From Mesorhizobium sp. STM 4661 (GTDB taxonomy: Bacteria; Pseudomonadota; Alphaproteobacteria; Rhizobiales; Rhizobiaceae): a DNA stretch of 64,000 nucleotides. Numbering within the stretch: position 1 is the first letter of the stretch; the number at the start of each line of letters is the position of its first letter. The notes under the pieces are model-generated. The model was given only the letters and a program-made list of their open reading frames with translations. It had not been told where the DNA came from and searched no databases. The stretch lies in the NCBI RefSeq assembly GCF_000359125.1, contig NZ_CAAF010000028.1, positions 124,001 to 188,000 of the forward strand, read 5' to 3'. Shown here piece by piece: positions 21,430 to 61,062 of this stretch. Made by a program: the position numbers and the translations under genes.

Positions 21430-22284
21430 CTATCCTGCAACGATGGGCGTTCTGAGGATGCCGATACCATCGGCCTCGATCTCGACGAGGTCGCCGGCCT
21501 TCATGAAGACCGGCGGCTTCTGGAAGATGCCGACGCCGGCCGGCGTTCCCGTCGACACGATGTCGCCGGGTTCGAGCGGGATATATTGCGACAGGAAGGA
21601 AATCAGCTGCGGCAGCGAGAACAGCCAGTCCGAGGTGCTGCCGTCCTGCAGCGTCTTGCCGTTGAGCCGCGTCTTCAGCGCGACATTGTCCGGATGCGGC
21701 ATCGCATCGGCGGTGACGATGCATGGGCCGATCGGCGCGAAGCCGGCAAAGTTCTTGCCGATGGTGATCTGGTTGTCCTTGAACTGCACGTCGCGCGCCG
21801 AAATGTCGTTGAGCAGCGTGTAGCCGAAGATCGCCGGCATCACCTCGGCCTCCGTCGCCTTGTGCAACTCCTCGCCGATGACGGCCGAGAACTCCACCTC
21901 GTAATCCATCTGCTCGGTCCTGACAGGCTTTTCGACCGGCACATCGGGGCCGACCACCGAAGTCGGCAATTTGGTGAAGAAGAACGGCTCGGTCGGCATT
22001 TTCGCGTTCGGGTTCTCCTCGGCATGGCCCTTGTAGTTGATGCCGGAGCACAGCACCTTGCCCGGCCGGATCGGGGCTTCCAGCCTCACATCGGCGAGCG
22101 CGTAGCGCGGCGCCTTGGCGAGACCGGCCCGAATGCGGCTCAACGTCTCTTTGCCGCCGAGCACGACCTCCATCACGCTCTCCGCAAGTCCGGCCTCGGT
22201 CAGGCAGGCGACGTGGTCGCCGTCCAGCACGCCGGCGTGATGATCATGGCCTCCCTTGCGGTGGGAAAAGGTAACGAGCTTCAT
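21430..22284 (-). CDS. fumarylacetoacetate hydrolase (FAH) family protein
   Basis: A 284-residue FAH-superfamily enzyme. Members hydrolyse or decarboxylate 2,4-dioxo or acylpyruvate compounds with a divalent metal. The signature runs LCSGINYKGHAEENP, then the metal-binding MDYEVEFSAVIG, then SARDVQFKDNQ and the C-terminal GDIVSTGTPAGVG. It would be cytosolic and is likely to act late in the pathway on a dioxo acid. The known D-apionate routes do not use this family, so its substrate here is open. The ATG abuts the stop of the alcohol dehydrogenase gene. Confidence 0.88.
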   Translation of the reverse strand: MKLVTFSHRKGGHDHHAGVLDGDHVACLTEAGLAESVMEVVLGGKETLSRIRAGLAKAPRYALADVRLEAPIRPGKVLCSGINYKGHAEENPNAKMPTEPFFFTKLPTSVVGPDVPVEKPVRTEQMDYEVEFSAVIGEELHKATEAEVMPAIFGYTLLNDISARDVQFKDNQITIGKNFAGFAPIGPCIVTADAMPHPDNVALKTRLNGKTLQDGSTSDWLFSLPQLISFLSQYIPLEPGDIVSTGTPAGVGIFQKPPVFMKAGDLVEIEADGIGILRTPIVAG

Positions 22285-23301
22285 CTAGTCCTCCGAAACG
22301 AATACGGCCTTGTGCAGGGCCATTGGATTGTCTGCGAGTTTCTGGAAGACGCCGGGGGCTTCGCCGAGCGCGAAGGAACTGGCGATTCTGGGATAGTGGA
22401 TCTTGCCGGAGGCGAGCAGCTCAAGCGCCTCGGGAAAACAGTCGACCGAGGCGCGCGAGCCGAGGATCGTCACTTCCTTGCGGGTGAAGTCGAGGCCCGG
22501 GAAGGTGATGCCTTGCCCCTTCTTGACCAGTCCGAGAATGATGATGCGTCCGCCGGCGGCGACCAGATCGATGGTCTGCTCCATTGCCGGCGCAGCGCCC
22601 GTCGCCTCCATGACCACCGGCATGCCTTCGCCATTGCTGAGTTCCAGCACACGTTCCAGCAGGCCGGCGCCGCTGGCGATCGGTATCGCGCCGAGCTCGG
22701 CCGCCGTGGACAGGCGCTCCGCCGAGAGATCGGTGGCGTAGACCTTTGCGCCATGCGCGCGCGCCACTTCGACGATGGCCAGTCCGATCGGCCCGGCGCC
22801 GAGCACCAGTATCGTGTCCTGCGTGGTGACCATGCCGCGGCGGCAGCCCTGCACGCCGATGGCCACCGGCTCGGCGAACGCCGCCTCGAAGTCGGTCAGC
22901 CCATCCGGCACGACATTGAGATTCCCGACCGGCGCCGTCACGAAATCAGCGAAACCGCCCTCGCGATGAACGCCGACAATGGTGAGATTGGCGCAGCAAT
23001 TGCGCTTGCCGACCCGGCACGGATAACAGTGGCCGCAGCCGATGAACGGATCGACGACGACGCGCGTGCCGATGGCCGGACCGTTGGTGCTGGGGCCGTA
23101 GGCCTCGACCACGCCGGCAATCTCGTGGCAGCCGATCCTGGGATAGGTCACATAGGGGTTCTTGCCGGTGTAGATGTAGAGGTCGCCGGCGCAAAGCCCG
23201 GCAGCCTTGACCCGGACCAGCGCCTCTCCAGCCTGTGGCTCGGGCTTCGGCGCCTCTGCCATGCGGATCGAAAACGGCGCATCGAAGATCGCTGCACGCA
23301 T
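22285..23301 (-). CDS. zinc-dependent medium-chain alcohol dehydrogenase
   Basis: A 338-residue polyol or sugar-acid dehydrogenase of the MDR superfamily. Catalytic zinc ligands are in GLCAGD and GCHE. The structural zinc loop GCGHCYPCRVGKRNCC has its four cysteines, and the NAD site is LGAGPIGLAIVEVARAHGAK. The ATG at 23301 gives the family start MRAAIFDAP; longer in-frame extensions read through the end of the MBL gene and are rejected. It probably oxidises a hydroxyl group of the operon's sugar acid. It starts 4 bases after the preceding stop. Confidence 0.88.
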   Translation of the reverse strand: MRAAIFDAPFSIRMAEAPKPEPQAGEALVRVKAAGLCAGDLYIYTGKNPYVTYPRIGCHEIAGVVEAYGPSTNGPAIGTRVVVDPFIGCGHCYPCRVGKRNCCANLTIVGVHREGGFADFVTAPVGNLNVVPDGLTDFEAAFAEPVAIGVQGCRRGMVTTQDTILVLGAGPIGLAIVEVARAHGAKVYATDLSAERLSTAAELGAIPIASGAGLLERVLELSNGEGMPVVMEATGAAPAMEQTIDLVAAGGRIIILGLVKKGQGITFPGLDFTRKEVTILGSRASVDCFPEALELLASGKIHYPRIASSFALGEAPGVFQKLADNPMALHKAVFVSED

Positions 23302-48566: not shown

Positions 48567-48690
48567 ACCCTCCCCCTTGTGGGGAGGGTCGATCCGCATA
48601 GCGAATCGGGGTGGGGGTGCTCGTAAAGCGCTTTCGTCGCGCGGACCCCCACCCCGCTCACTTTGTTCGCGACCCTCCCCACAAGGGGTA
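48567..48690. repeat. MITE-like long inverted repeat
   Basis: The arms ACCCTCCCCCTTGTGGGGAG and its near-complement near 48671-48690 enclose GGGGTGGGGGT and ACCCCCACCCC, about 124 bases that fold back on themselves. Relatives in this window lie at 56784-56910 and 58937-59094. There is no coding capacity. Confidence 0.75.
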
Positions 48691-48781
48691 AAACCGCAGC
48701 GGCAGATTGCCGCTGCGGAAGCCGTCCCGGCATTGGTTCCCGGTTTTCGCCCAAAGCAGGATTTGCAACCGACGCTCGTCG

Positions 48782-48802
48782 CTGGTAAAACATTTTTACC
48801 AG
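48782..48802. promoter_or_regulatory. perfect 21-base operator upstream of glcD
   Basis: CTGGTAAAA (48782-48790) and TTTTACCAG (48794-48802) form a perfect 9-bp inverted repeat around CAT. The TGGT/ACCA ends suit FadR-type GntR regulators, and the half-site resembles that in the lldR promoter. It lies 20 bases before the glcD ATG. Confidence 0.6.
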
Positions 48803-48822
48803 TCGAGCGAAGGAGGCTGCTG

Positions 48823-50319
48823 ATGTCCGGCCTTGCCATGCCGAAGCCAGACGATGCCACGATGCGCCGTCGCGACGAGATCGTCGCCGACATGCGCATC
48901 ATCGTGCCGGGCGAGGGCGTCGTCGACGCCGCCAATTCAATGCGTGCCTTCGAGAGCGACGGGCTTACCGCCTATCGGCAGTTGCCGCTGGTCGTGGTGC
49001 TGCCGGAAACGGTGGCGCAGGTCTCGCGCGTGCTGAAATATTGCAACGATCGCAACATTCGTGTCGTGCCGCGCGGTTCCGGCACCTCTTTGTCCGGCGG
49101 CGCGCTGCCGCTCGAAGACGCGGTGCTGCTGGTCATGAGCCGGTTCAATCGTATCCTCGAGATCGACTTTCCCGATCGCATCGTCGTCGCCCAGCCGGGC
49201 GTCACCAATCTCGGCATCACCACCGCCGTCGAGCAGGAGGGCTTCTACTACGCCCCCGATCCATCCTCCCAGATCGCCTGCTCGATCGGCGGCAATGTCG
49301 CGGAAAATTCCGGTGGCGTGCACTGCCTGAAATACGGCCTCACCGCCAACAACGTCCTCGGCATCGAGATGGTGCTGATGAATGGCGAGGTGGTGCGCCT
49401 CGGCGGCAGCCATCTCGACTGCGAGGGCTACGACCTGCTTGGCGTGATGACCGGTTCCGAAGGCCTGCTCGGCGTCGTCACCGAGGTCACCGTGCGCATC
49501 CTGAAGAAACCGGAGACGGCGCGCGCGCTGCTGATCGGCTTTCCGACCAGCGAGCAGGGCGGCCAATGCGTCGCCGACATTATCGGCGCCGGCATCATCC
49601 CGGGCGGCATGGAGATGATGGACCGCCCGGCGATCCATGCGGCCGAGGATTTCGTCCATGCCGGCTATCCCCTGGATGTCGAGGCGCTGTTGATCGTCGA
49701 GCTCGACGGGCCGGGCGTCGAGGTCGATCATCTGATCGGCCTTGTCGAGGCCATCGCCTACCGCAACGGCTCGACCACCTGCCGCATCTCGCAGTCGGAG
49801 CAGGAGCGGCTGAGCTTCTGGGCCGGCCGCAAGGCGGCCTTCCCGGCGGTCGGCCGCATCTCGCCCGACTATTACTGCATGGACGGCACCATCCCACGCA
49901 AGGAACTGCCGCGCGTGCTCGCCGGCATGCGCGAACTCTCGGAGAAATATGGCCTCGGCGTCGCCAATGTCTTCCATGCCGGCGACGGCAATCTGCACCC
50001 GCTGATCCTGTACGACGCCAATGTGCCGGGCGAGCTCGACAAGGCCGAGAGTTTTGGCGCCGACATCTTGCGGCTCTGCGTCAAGGTCGGCGGCGTCCTG
50101 ACCGGCGAGCACGGGGTGGGCGTCGAGAAGCGCGACCTGATGCCGGAAATGTTCAACCAGATCGACCTCGACCAGCAGATGCGGGTCAAATGCGCCTTCG
50201 ATCCCAACCATCTTTTGAATCCCGGCAAGGTCTTCCCGCAACTGCGCCGCTGCGCCGAACTGGGCCGCATGCATGTGCATCGGGGCCAGGTGGCGTTTCC
50301 GGACATTCCGAGGTTTTGA
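48823..50319 (+). CDS. glcD: glycolate oxidase FAD subunit
   Basis: A 498-residue FAD-linked subunit that oxidises glycolate to glyoxylate. The FAD-binding PCMH domain has PRGSGTSLSGGALP and GGNVAENSGGVHCLKYG; the C-terminal FAD-oxidase domain contains NVFHAGDGNLHP and GEHGVGVEK. The ribosome site AAGGAGG at 48810-48816 sets the ATG. First gene of glcDEF. The next frame, the DUF559 nuclease, starts within its stop codon (TGATG). Confidence 0.95.
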   Translation: MSGLAMPKPDDATMRRRDEIVADMRIIVPGEGVVDAANSMRAFESDGLTAYRQLPLVVVLPETVAQVSRVLKYCNDRNIRVVPRGSGTSLSGGALPLEDAVLLVMSRFNRILEIDFPDRIVVAQPGVTNLGITTAVEQEGFYYAPDPSSQIACSIGGNVAENSGGVHCLKYGLTANNVLGIEMVLMNGEVVRLGGSHLDCEGYDLLGVMTGSEGLLGVVTEVTVRILKKPETARALLIGFPTSEQGGQCVADIIGAGIIPGGMEMMDRPAIHAAEDFVHAGYPLDVEALLIVELDGPGVEVDHLIGLVEAIAYRNGSTTCRISQSEQERLSFWAGRKAAFPAVGRISPDYYCMDGTIPRKELPRVLAGMRELSEKYGLGVANVFHAGDGNLHPLILYDANVPGELDKAESFGADILRLCVKVGGVLTGEHGVGVEKRDLMPEMFNQIDLDQQMRVKCAFDPNHLLNPGKVFPQLRRCAELGRMHVHRGQVAFPDIPRF

Positions 50320-50837
50320 TGGCAACGTCTCACAATGGCGGTTCCTCGCCCCCGCGAAGCGGGGGAGAGGTGGCTCGGGCGAAGCCCGAGACGGAGAGGG
50401 GGCCTGCGGCCGACGTGCCAAGCCGACGCTCACCTGAAAGGATCGCGCGCGCCCGCGCGCTTCGCCATGGCGACAATCCGGCGGAAGCAACCCTCTGGAA
50501 CGAACTGAAGGCCAAGAAGCTAGGCGGATACAAATTCGTGCGTCAGATGCCGATCGGGCCGTATTTCGCCGACTTCGCCTGCCGAAGCGAAAAGCTGGTC
50601 GTTGAGCTGGACGGAAGTCAGCATGCCGGGAGTCCTTACGACAGGCGACGCGATGAATTCATGCGTGGCGAAGGGTTCTCGGTCGTGCGGTTCTGGAACG
50701 TCGACGTACTCAAGGGCCGGACGAGCGTTTGCGAGACTGTCCTTGCGGCGCTGGAAGGGCGATTGGCCGAAGACGTGATCGCCTCGGACCTGAGGTTCGT
50801 TTTTGCGGCCAAGAAGGTTGGAGGTGGCGTTCTATGA
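50319..50837 (+). CDS. DUF559 family nuclease
   Basis: A 172-residue protein with the PD-(D/E)XK-like core of DUF559, related to very-short-patch repair endonucleases: ALRHGDNPAEATLW, then GPYFADFACRSEKL, then VVELDGSQH (acidic pair) and FSVVRFWNVDV. The first about 30 residues are encoded by the left copy of an intergenic repeat and are probably not part of the fold. The gene lies between glcD and glcE, in frame with neither pathway, and is bracketed by 63-bp inverted repeats. Expression would be through the glc operon. Confidence 0.85.
   Translation: MATSHNGGSSPPRSGGEVARAKPETERGPAADVPSRRSPERIARARALRHGDNPAEATLWNELKAKKLGGYKFVRQMPIGPYFADFACRSEKLVVELDGSQHAGSPYDRRRDEFMRGEGFSVVRFWNVDVLKGRTSVCETVLAALEGRLAEDVIASDLRFVFAAKKVGGGVL
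50341..50403 (+). repeat. left 63-bp inverted repeat of the DUF559 cassette
   Basis: Starts GTTCCTCGCC and ends GGAGAGGGGGC, with two internal hairpins (CCCCCGCGAAGCGGGGG and CTCGGGCGAAGCCCGAG). It matches the reverse complement of 50840-50902 at 62 of 63 positions. It lies inside the coding sequence of the DUF559 protein. Confidence 0.9.
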
Positions 50838-50839
50838 TT

Positions 50840-50902
50840 GCCCCCTCTCCGTCTCGGGCTTCGCCCGAGCCACCTCTCCCCCGCTTTGCGGGGGCGAGGA
50901 AC
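50840..50902 (-). repeat. right 63-bp inverted repeat of the DUF559 cassette
   Basis: Inverted copy of 50341-50403 with a single difference (CGCAAAGCG versus CGCGAAGCG, read in the same sense). It begins 3 bases after the DUF559 stop and ends 15 bases before the glcE ATG. Confidence 0.9.
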
Positions 50903-50916
50903 CTGGGTTCGGCGCC

Positions 50917-52176
50917 ATGACCACCTTCACCCCCTCCACATCAGACGAGGTCCTCTCCACCGTCGCCTGGGCAGCAGCGGAAGAATCGCCGCTCGAAATC
51001 CTCGGTCATGGCTCCAAGCGCGGCATTGGCCGTCCACAGCAGAGCGAACACTCACTCGACGTTTCCAAACTCACCGGCGTCACCCTTTACGAACCGGCCG
51101 AGCTGGTGCTGTCGGCCAAGGCCGGAACGCCGCTCGTCGAGATCGAAGCACTGCTTGCCGAAAACGGCCAGCAGCTTGCCTTTGAACCGATGGATTACGG
51201 CCCGCTGCTTGGCGGCAAACCGGGGAAAGGCACCATCGGCGGCGCACTTGCCGCCAACCTTTCCGGTCCGCGCCGGCTGAAGGCAGGTGCGGCGCGCGAC
51301 CATATCCTCGGCATCAGTGCCGTTTCCGGCCGTGGCGAGGCCTTCAAGTCAGGCGGCCGCGTCGTCAAGAACGTCACCGGCTACGATCTCTCCAAGCTGA
51401 TGGCCAACAGTTGGGGCACGCTGGCCGTGTTCACCGATGTCACCTTCAAGGTGCTGCCGGCGGCCGAGACCGAAGTCACGCTCGCCATACGCGGCCTGCT
51501 CGACGATCATGCCGCGGCCGCCATGGCGCTGGCGCTGGGTTCCAGCGCGGAGGTATCGAGCGCTGCACATCTTCCTGAACGCGTCGCGGCGCGGGTTGCC
51601 GGCGGCCATCTCGGCGGCAATCCGGCGACGCTGCTGCGCGTCGAGGGTTTCGGGCCGTCGGTCGCCTATCGCGTCGCCGCGCTGAAAGATCTGCTCCGCA
51701 ATGCCGGCCCGCTGGAGGAGATTGCGGGCGAAGCCTCGCATTCCATCTGGCGCAATGTCAGGGATTGCGCCCCATTCGCGGACGGCTCGGAAAAACCGGT
51801 ATGGCGCGTCTCCATGGCGCCGTCGCAAGGCCACCAGATGGTGCTGGCGCTGCGCATGCAGGCGGCGGTCGACGCCTTCTACGACTGGCAGGGCGGGCTG
51901 ATCTGGTTGCGCATGGAGCATGGCGATCCTGAGGGTGACCTGCTGCGCGGGCTGATCGGGAGACATGGCGGCGGCCACGCGACGCTGGTGCGCGCCGCGC
52001 CTTCGCATCGCGCCGCCGTGCCGGTATTCGAACCACAGGCGCCGGCGTTGGCGGCGCTGTCAGCAAGGCTGAAAGCCGAATTCGACCCCAAGGCGATCCT
52101 CAACCCCGGCCGTATGACGCCGGGTGCCGGCTCTGCTACTCTCGGCCCGCTAACCGAGGAGGGAGGATCACAATGA
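50917..52176 (+). CDS. glcE: glycolate oxidase FAD-binding subunit GlcE
   Basis: A 419-residue second FAD subunit of glycolate oxidase. The PCMH-type region has GGKPGKGTIGGALAANLSGP and SGGRVVKNVTGYDLSKLM; the C terminus DPKAILNPGRM is the family's. The ATG at 50917 lies just after the right repeat and has no good ribosome site, so its expression may have been affected by the insertion. It overlaps the next gene by four bases (ATGA). Confidence 0.94.
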   Translation: MTTFTPSTSDEVLSTVAWAAAEESPLEILGHGSKRGIGRPQQSEHSLDVSKLTGVTLYEPAELVLSAKAGTPLVEIEALLAENGQQLAFEPMDYGPLLGGKPGKGTIGGALAANLSGPRRLKAGAARDHILGISAVSGRGEAFKSGGRVVKNVTGYDLSKLMANSWGTLAVFTDVTFKVLPAAETEVTLAIRGLLDDHAAAAMALALGSSAEVSSAAHLPERVAARVAGGHLGGNPATLLRVEGFGPSVAYRVAALKDLLRNAGPLEEIAGEASHSIWRNVRDCAPFADGSEKPVWRVSMAPSQGHQMVLALRMQAAVDAFYDWQGGLIWLRMEHGDPEGDLLRGLIGRHGGGHATLVRAAPSHRAAVPVFEPQAPALAALSARLKAEFDPKAILNPGRMTPGAGSATLGPLTEEGGSQ

Positions 52177-60942: not shown

Positions 60943-60982
60943 CCCCCTCTCCGTCTCGGCTTCGCCCGAGACGGAGAGGGGG
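60943..60982. repeat. hairpin related to the DUF559-cassette repeat
   Basis: CCCCCTCTCCGTCTCGG (60943-60959) pairs perfectly with CCGAGACGGAGAGGGGG (60966-60982) around CTTCGC. Its left arm equals the outer end of the repeats at 50341 and 50840. Without a T-run it is not a clear terminator, though it lies after hisG. Confidence 0.8.
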
Positions 60983-61062
60983 CCTCTGCCTCCACTACCA
61001 TCGACGGGATTTCCACCACCCGGCAGGGCTGATAGGCTCGGCCGTCTGCGGAGGAGACGGCG

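Follow-up and report, generated by a model that had tools for sequence, protein, structure and literature searches.

The 'intrastrand triplex' (TM/PIT) repeats of Escherichia coli MG1655 (Holder et al. 2015, PMC4666352) form a known class that is matched by a repeat in Mesorhizobium sp. STM 4661, where two inverted copies of it enclose a gene for a DUF559 nuclease located between glcD- and glcE-like genes. This locus lies in a stretch of 64,000 nucleotides (contig NZ_CAAF010000028.1, positions 124,001 to 188,000 of the forward strand), hereafter called the window. In the part of the E. coli study drawn on here, single strands of TM/PIT repeats form stable triplexes in vitro; double-stranded DNA gave no characteristic triplex signals, and in vivo footprints showed no protection. 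Sequence change among strains is greater near the repeats and small deletions are linked to them; the same part of the study reports no associated gene function and found no mobility functions in their gene contexts. The window repeat shares with TM/PIT the hairpin, a turn of 2–3 nt and the purine tail with mirror (purine-motif triplex) symmetry, and a G–A stem mismatch is common to the window arms and the E. coli 'mm' type. It differs in that a second hairpin replaces the second loop, which is short in TM/PIT and measures 3 nt in the E. coli consensus and 1–6 nt in the database search of that study (PMC4666352); such short loops are present in the E. coli copy beside ycjD and not in the window family.

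REPIN–RAYT systems (doublets of repetitive extragenic palindromes, REPs, and REP-associated tyrosine transposases) offer another comparison. There, too, a stable gene has inverted palindromic repeats on either side, further copies of which are dispersed through the genome as close inverted pairs, and one genome can hold several gene clades whose repeat families differ (PMC3733652 for the part drawn on here). In the window family, likewise, the gene stands between its cognate repeats, which also occur elsewhere as inverted pairs. However, the window enzyme is of the PD-(D/E)XK (Vsr-like) kind, whereas RAYTs are HUH Y1 transposases; the window repeat has a triplex-type mirror tail, and the Y1_Tnp genes sampled below were free of such hairpins. 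Neither a Y1_Tnp HUH domain nor another transposase domain was found in the window protein with Pfam at E ≤ 0.001, and the system is therefore set apart from RAYTs, though it possibly works alike. As far as the analogy goes, the parallel is architectural, with an enzyme and a repeat of other kinds.

The CGTC-tagged REPs, mostly alphaproteobacterial, occur as head-to-head dimers with CGTC...CCA around the stem and are described as being without a dedicated transposase (PMC3733652, part drawn on here). The second hairpin of the window arm also reads CGTC-stem-CCA. Unlike it, the CGTC-tagged stems almost invariably start with A–T pairs, and a mirror tail, which the window arm has, is not mentioned in that part of the paper. 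In Rhodopseudomonas faecalis, CGTC-type REPs (CGTCATTGCGAGG...GAAGCAATCCA) occur in the 150 nt that precede a DUF559 gene.

On the protein side, known members of the same family are YcjD of E. coli and NGO0050 of Neisseria gonorrhoeae (PDB 3HRL). The window protein matches the DUF559 profile PF04480 at 113 bits (cut-off 20.6); DUF559 and MTES_1575 are its only Pfam matches at E ≤ 0.001, the Vsr profile PF03852 not being among them. In its AlphaFold model (mean pLDDT 77.5) the nuclease core, approximately residues 42–150, is well predicted and the start poorly, residues 1–40, partly encoded by the left repeat arm, being predicted as disordered (pLDDT 54–62). The closest solved structures are 3HRL (Z 14.5, root mean square deviation 2.2 over 94 residues, 42% identity), the homing endonuclease I-Bth0305I (Z 11.0) and Vsr (Z 9.7), the last two with a related fold but from different sequence families; the resolvase Hjc follows at Z 6.7, in a range possibly reflecting only a common arrangement. 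Residues invariant across 42 aligned sequences (D85-F86, E96, D98-G99, Q101-H102, among others) are as expected for a nuclease centre, and the fold, as modelled, is that of a DNA nuclease. YcjD has earlier been related to Vsr, which the YcjD profile detects (PMC1189080, part drawn on here). Another DUF559 protein that has been studied genetically, VsrA of Caulobacter, has been linked to DNA damage in the absence of the methyltransferase, and the part of PMC12907096 drawn on here does not mention damage at triplex-type repeats. A role as a defence or phage gene finds no support, the window protein having no PADLOC or PHROGs match at E ≤ 0.001 (0 PADLOC-DB families).

An earlier note, made from this DNA alone, had proposed that the nuclease is linked to its own repeat in the manner of REPs and RAYTs, and knew of no described system of this kind. 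No report of the link between DUF559 and repeats, and no repeat partner for DUF559, YcjD or NGO0050, was found in the literature searched, which covered few subscription journals and no preprints; the repeat itself, as said, matches a known class.

Repeats beside DUF559 genes and in their genomes

The association of DUF559 genes with the repeats is, in our judgement, close to certain. In the genus sample (40 regions of 20 kb from the matches listed, with 43 DUF559 genes in about 15 flanking contexts), inverted flanks with an alignment score of at least 30 bracket 17/43 DUF559 genes versus 9/638 control genes. Repeats of families A–F lie within 200 nt of 36 of the 43 genes versus 82 of 638 controls, and on both sides of 18/43 versus 8/638, the same family being found on both sides in all 18 two-sided cases; repeat families in the genus are clade-specific. 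Since families A–F were defined from DUF559 flanks, this test shows proximity and not the discovery of families. A family-independent hairpin test was also applied, which required an 8-nt all-pyrimidine arm with at least five C, a loop of 3–12 nt and at most one mismatch, within a span from 200 nt outside the gene to 90 nt inside its start or 30 nt inside its end; it was positive for 40/42 DUF559 genes versus 91/578 controls.

The same test extends beyond the genus. Among 190 genomes of the class, 49 (from 47 genera, the host included) carry DUF559; the 87 loci listed outside the host gave 88 genes, of which 10 were dropped for a weak score or a short flank. A hairpin was found near 72/78 of these DUF559 genes versus 15/173 other genes of the same loci, and on both sides of 41/78 versus 0/173. 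A third sample, drawn from several phyla, consisted of the best 80 of at least 560 relatives retrieved with two peptide patterns, and is a convenience sample. Its 80 named loci gave 82 genes, 77 with full flanks, and the hairpin occurs near 73/77 of them (10/117 for other genes) and on both sides of 51/77 (0/117). Intergenic gaps of at least 80 nt behave similarly: the hairpin is present in 62/83 gaps beside DUF559 and 8/92 other gaps of the class loci, and in 70/87 versus 5/77 of the named loci. The association is specific to DUF559, as no hairpin was detected near 29 usable loci of Vsr genes or 25 of Y1_Tnp genes (30 of each fetched from the class sample), controls that are weaker than their size implies because only part of these loci come from hairpin-rich genomes.

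Copies of the pattern CCTCYCCCN{3,9}GGGRGAGG were counted in the class genomes, which are spread over many families, with the host excluded. At least three copies were present in 41 of 48 genomes with DUF559 versus 13 of 141 without it, kinship being ignored, and the median numbers of copies were 16 and 0, respectively. When only genomes of at least 2.3 Mb are considered, the corresponding values are 36/39 and 10/64. Enzyme-carrying genomes tend to hold far more repeats, and the enzyme therefore probably maintains or spreads them.

Several DUF559 loci show further peculiarities. A clade of short proteins (117–127 amino acids; loci L120, L142 and L143) is bracketed by a long arm family, with alignment scores of 84–98 and an internal palindrome AGCGATTTC...GAAATCGC. 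In one genome (G086), two genes with similar arms occupy different sites, which might reflect movement. Some DUF559 proteins of other genera have C-terminal tails that are apparently repeat-coded, for example PPPSRGRAT.

The repeat unit and its mirror tail

Folded as single-stranded DNA, the window arm forms two hairpins and a free purine tail (z = −4.1; 0/200 shuffles were as good). A 69-nt query around the arm matched the host genome at 30 places (E < 0.001), namely the two window arms, two half-arms at 60943 and 26 others, 20 of which form ten close inverted pairs with starts 96–162 nt apart, by our reading of the list. The number of these places and the stability of the fold argue against a chance origin of the arm repeat. 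An alignment of 20 host copies (from 28 sequences) shows almost no variation at the mismatched G of the first stem; in copies of the host and of its relatives, read by eye, the second hairpin keeps its stem and varies in sequence. A Rho-independent terminator was ruled out for the arms, which are not followed by a T run.

The purine arm GGGGGAGAGG and the tail GGAGAGGGGG of the window unit are exact mirrors in the purine-motif triplex code. Pairing of G with G and of A with A or T is the code of purine-motif (reverse Hoogsteen) triplexes. On this scoring (G opposite G; A or T opposite A), the sequence up to about 60 nt away was compared with the purine arm for 353 hairpins (349 unique) in the vicinity of DUF559 genes. 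It contained a perfect mirror of that arm in 302/349, whereas a direct copy under the same rule was found in 136/349; when flanks were swapped between loci, mirrors numbered about 65/349 on average, and 80 in the largest of 30 shuffles. For arms that are not self-mirroring, the values were 245/285 for the mirror, 79 for the direct copy and 49 for swapped flanks. Where the tail lies at most 4 nt away, A of the arm faces A 164 times, T 146 times and C or G 6 times, and G faces G in 1322/1334 cases; offsets were fitted in these counts, which are thus descriptive of the code and not a test of it. An anchored count involving no offset search points in the same direction, more weakly: A of the arm faces A or T in 190/433 cases, and G of the arm does so in 190/1200. 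In the window family, arm and tail are separated by the 22 nt of the second hairpin. G-quadruplex formation was rejected as the reason for the tail, since units such as GGGGGAAGG/GGATGGGGG retain the mirror although they have just two long G runs; as an additional structure it could, judging by sequence, be adopted by many units, for example GGGAGAGGGTTGGGTGAGGGG.

The host genome carries eight DUF559 genes. Self-comparison places three of them besides that of the window (L004, L005 and L007) between inverted repeats as well, these being of other families; immediately upstream of L001, L002 and L003 an inverted pair was seen by eye. On host contig C23, at about 22137–22292, a window-family pair of opposite orientation is enclosed by an extended inverted repeat and, by eye, adjoins a family-C-type repeat; this arrangement suggests a nested insertion.

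The glcD–glcE site

The features of the window locus are collected in Table 1. The two arms, each of 64 nt, are 98% complementary (63/64) and 436 nt apart. The inverted repeats of the earlier note are real, although one nucleotide longer than the 63 nt (62/63) first given, so that the element ends at 50903 and not at 50902. Its reading of the gene as a VSR-like DUF559 nuclease gene placed between glcD and glcE is borne out by the Pfam match and the neighbouring domains, as is its observation that the left copy encodes part of the N terminus and that the ATG begins at the final base of the glcD stop TGA. The related hairpin that it saw standing alone consists of two half-arms (tail plus second hairpin) joined head to head, and extends to 60985 rather than 60982. 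The names glcD, glcE and glcF are those of the earlier note, and the Pfam domains are consistent with them, the glcF-like neighbour carrying CCG and Fer4 domains.

Table 1. Features of the DUF559 locus, in window coordinates
Feature	Position	Strand	Basis
DUF559 (Vsr-like PD-(D/E)XK) nuclease gene, 172 amino acids	50319..50837	+	Pfam PF04480; structure matches of AlphaFold model
Left repeat arm (triplex-type REP), doubling as codons for residues 8–28	50340..50403	+	63/64 match to inverted right arm
Right repeat arm, inverted copy of left-arm unit, tail toward gene	50840..50903	-	inverted match to left arm
Left arm, first hairpin; purine arm GGGGGAGAGG at 50361–50370; one G–A mismatch in stem	50344..50370	+	DNA fold
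Left arm, second, variable hairpin	50372..50392	+	DNA fold
Left arm, purine tail GGAGAGGGGG, exact mirror of purine arm, toward gene	50393..50402	+	sequence; unpaired in DNA fold
Repeat-pair remnant: two fused halves (tail + second hairpin), one 17-bp hairpin	60943..60985		sequence comparison; DNA fold
glcD-like gene, upstream neighbour, start approximate	48673..50319	+	FAD_binding_4 + FAD-oxidase_C
glcE-like gene, downstream neighbour	50917..52176	+	FAD_binding_4

A window-type gene occupies the glcD–glcE site in 21 of 99 genomes of the genus, host included; the other genes are 65–97% identical to that of the window, and arms flank both sides at all 21 loci. In one of them (L087) the left arm is shortened and the C-terminal frame broken, and a 22nd copy, more degraded, occurs at the same site in genome G081. 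Junctions were taken from 20 genomes without a full copy, 19 were usable, and their contents were read by eye. A family C repeat pair was present at 14/19 and a right half-arm remnant at 5/19, three of these being among the 14 with family C; one junction held only the left arm, another only the larger part of the right arm, and a third a degraded gene. The remnants and the single site indicate that the gene was inherited at one site and apparently lost repeatedly; it thus appears to be transmitted vertically, with frequent losses, and not to hop. An insertion sequence was likewise rejected, the protein having no transposase domain and the 21 window-type loci sharing one site. The glcD–glcE junctions of relatives without the gene (L098–L116) repeatedly hold another repeat family, and, given the 14 junctions with family C, a single intergenic site hosts more than one family. 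A second DUF559 clade, about 60% identical, has another fixed site and its own arm variant (nine loci read, L089–L097).

The link that the earlier note proposed has therefore come through the two tests named in it: DUF559 genes in the genus, the class and several phyla do not lack the flanking repeats, and the gene is not at the glcD–glcE site in all relatives. The match to TM/PIT repeats, the reach to several phyla and to E. coli, and the inheritance at one site with losses are what that note had not seen.

YcjD, competing explanations and significance

In E. coli K-12, TM no. 9 (1,351,239–1,351,204) lies about 170 bp downstream of ycjD (1,351,407–1,351,760, minus strand), whose product matches DUF559 at 167 bits. 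In locus L325, the last ycjD codons run into a degenerate repeat copy (CCCTCTCCCTGAAAGAGCGAGGG). The gene with its downstream region (at least 80% of the query) is present in 3362/5426 E. coli genomes; according to the part of PMC12817139 drawn on here, it occupies the site of eefRABCD in other lineages, and phylogroups A, B1 and C have conserved it, as have ST69 and ST182. For a comparison of TM copies, 60 entries spread over the ranking were taken and 59 compared, one record of 231,544 bases being left out. The median number of further TM places was 19 (12–28) in 37 chromosomes with ycjD versus 7 (1–20) in 22 without it (Mann–Whitney p = 2e-9, confounded by lineage). Between fepB and entC, 2752/5426 genomes (80% coverage) have a 186-bp unit that contains an inverted TM pair, and the three shorter alleles aligned show its clean absence; the ygfF-gcvP site is covered at 80% by 3018/5426 genomes. 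At hrpB-mrcB, an O111:H8 strain (L400, compared with L395) is missing exactly 64 bp from between the two purine arms of one TM pair, which leaves one hybrid hairpin. By analogy, the hairpin at 60943–60985 of the window may have arisen by a similar internal deletion.

The explanation of the whole that we favour, with some confidence, is a two-part system in which the YcjD/DUF559 nuclease has a TM/PIT-type repeat as its substrate. The repeat unit would be a pyrimidine–purine hairpin onto which the purine tail folds back as the third strand of a triplex, the second hairpin forming the turn between arm and tail in the window family, and the window-type gene, inherited vertically, would be a stable resident with copies of its own repeat on either side. 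The nuclease would recognise the hairpin-triplex in single-stranded DNA, for example on the lagging strand, and nick or cut there; repair or copying after the cut would maintain the repeats and occasionally insert new pairs elsewhere, much as RAYTs are thought to act on REPINs. Genomes that keep the nuclease would keep the repeats, which would decay once it is lost. In favour of this stand the adjacency to DUF559 genes and not to the control families, the co-occurrence in genomes, the matching families on the two sides, the mirror rule, the dispersal of the window's repeat largely as close inverted pairs, the E. coli data, the nuclease fold and the conservation of the arms. At 20 of the 21 window-type loci (L087 left out), identity between species is 96% for the left arm, 91% for the right arm, 76% for the gene core and 83% for the glcD end; the arms were found here by aligning sequences with the window arm, a procedure that favours identity. 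That the enzyme acts on the repeats is, on the sequence evidence, very probable; for its spreading them, we see an even chance.

A number of observations weigh against this explanation. Hairpin-free DUF559 genes exist (6/78 in the class, 4/77 among the named loci), 7/48 DUF559 genomes hold none of the pattern searched, the 13 DUF559-less genomes with at least three copies have to be accounted for, and the genome statistics ignore phylogeny. Genomes with at least three hairpin copies supply just 15/30 of the Vsr and 8/30 of the Y1_Tnp loci. Within E. coli, the presence of ycjD tracks phylogroup, which confounds the TM counts, and 12 TM copies are present in a ycjD-less O157:H7 strain and in three others, with 20 in one more. 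Clean presence or absence was seen at just one of four E. coli sites compared, adk-hemH, hrpB-mrcB and tauD-hemB showing replacements or partial deletions; the TAA on both sides of the fepB-entC insert does not establish a target-site duplication. At the 20 window-type loci compared above, whose arm identity is favoured by the way the arms were found, left and right arms are 93.5% identical within and 92.6% between loci (p = 0.09), and concerted evolution of the two arms was consequently rejected as a claim.

The best surviving alternative, which we nevertheless regard as unlikely, is that DUF559 is a structure-specific repair nuclease that clears triplexes and hairpins formed by repeats which spread or arise otherwise, repeat-rich genomes keeping the nuclease; copies beside the gene could then serve as feedback control. 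Co-occurrence in genomes would be expected equally, the neighbours in fold include the repair enzyme Vsr and, more weakly, Hjc, and the repeats are linked to small deletions (PMC4666352, part drawn on here), as in the 64-bp deletion inside the TM pair of L400. Alone, however, such a role leaves unexplained why hairpins so often stand on both sides of the DUF559 genes of the named loci (51/77) and of no other gene there, and why the family is the same on the two sides in all 18 two-sided cases of the genus. Less probable still, and in our view improbable, is a nuclease gene that behaves as a homing-type element and lands safely in repeat pairs that already exist, these being its target and not its product. 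A bracketed gene does have the layout of a repeat pair whose spacer contains a gene, DUF559 is similar to the homing endonuclease I-Bth0305I, and REPs are insertion targets of insertion sequence elements (PMC3733652, part drawn on here); against this, all 21 window-type genes are at glcD–glcE by descent, some losses of the gene leave arm remnants, and E. coli strains with ycjD hold more copies, not merely some. Very-short-patch mismatch repair in partnership with a cytosine methyltransferase, the role proposed for VsrA of Caulobacter, with the repeats as bystanders, is very improbable: VsrA is responsible for the SOS response of ScmA-less cells (PMC12907096, part drawn on here) and the YcjD profile detects Vsr, but the Vsr-family genes of the class sample are without repeats and a bystander role does not predict the adjacency seen at 72/78 genes.

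The two-part system may reach further than the loci described here. Tentatively, and with the odds somewhat against so broad a statement, DUF559/YcjD proteins could be the dedicated enzymes of intrastrand-triplex repeats throughout bacteria, reading the folded triplex and copying or mobilising the repeat independently of RAYTs and transposases, which would account for the origin of orphan TM/PIT repeats, including those of E. coli. A protein with a DNA triplex as its natural site would, to our knowledge, be a rare case, and this would apply if the enzyme reads the triplex. Intrastrand-triplex repeats of E. coli and many other bacteria have so far been assigned neither an enzyme nor an origin, and DUF559 is a widespread nuclease family without an assigned function; the link between them, if true, would explain both. 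It would then also constitute a second, unrelated partnership between a repeat and a nuclease beside REPIN–RAYT, and the question would be accessible in E. coli K-12 through one gene, ycjD.

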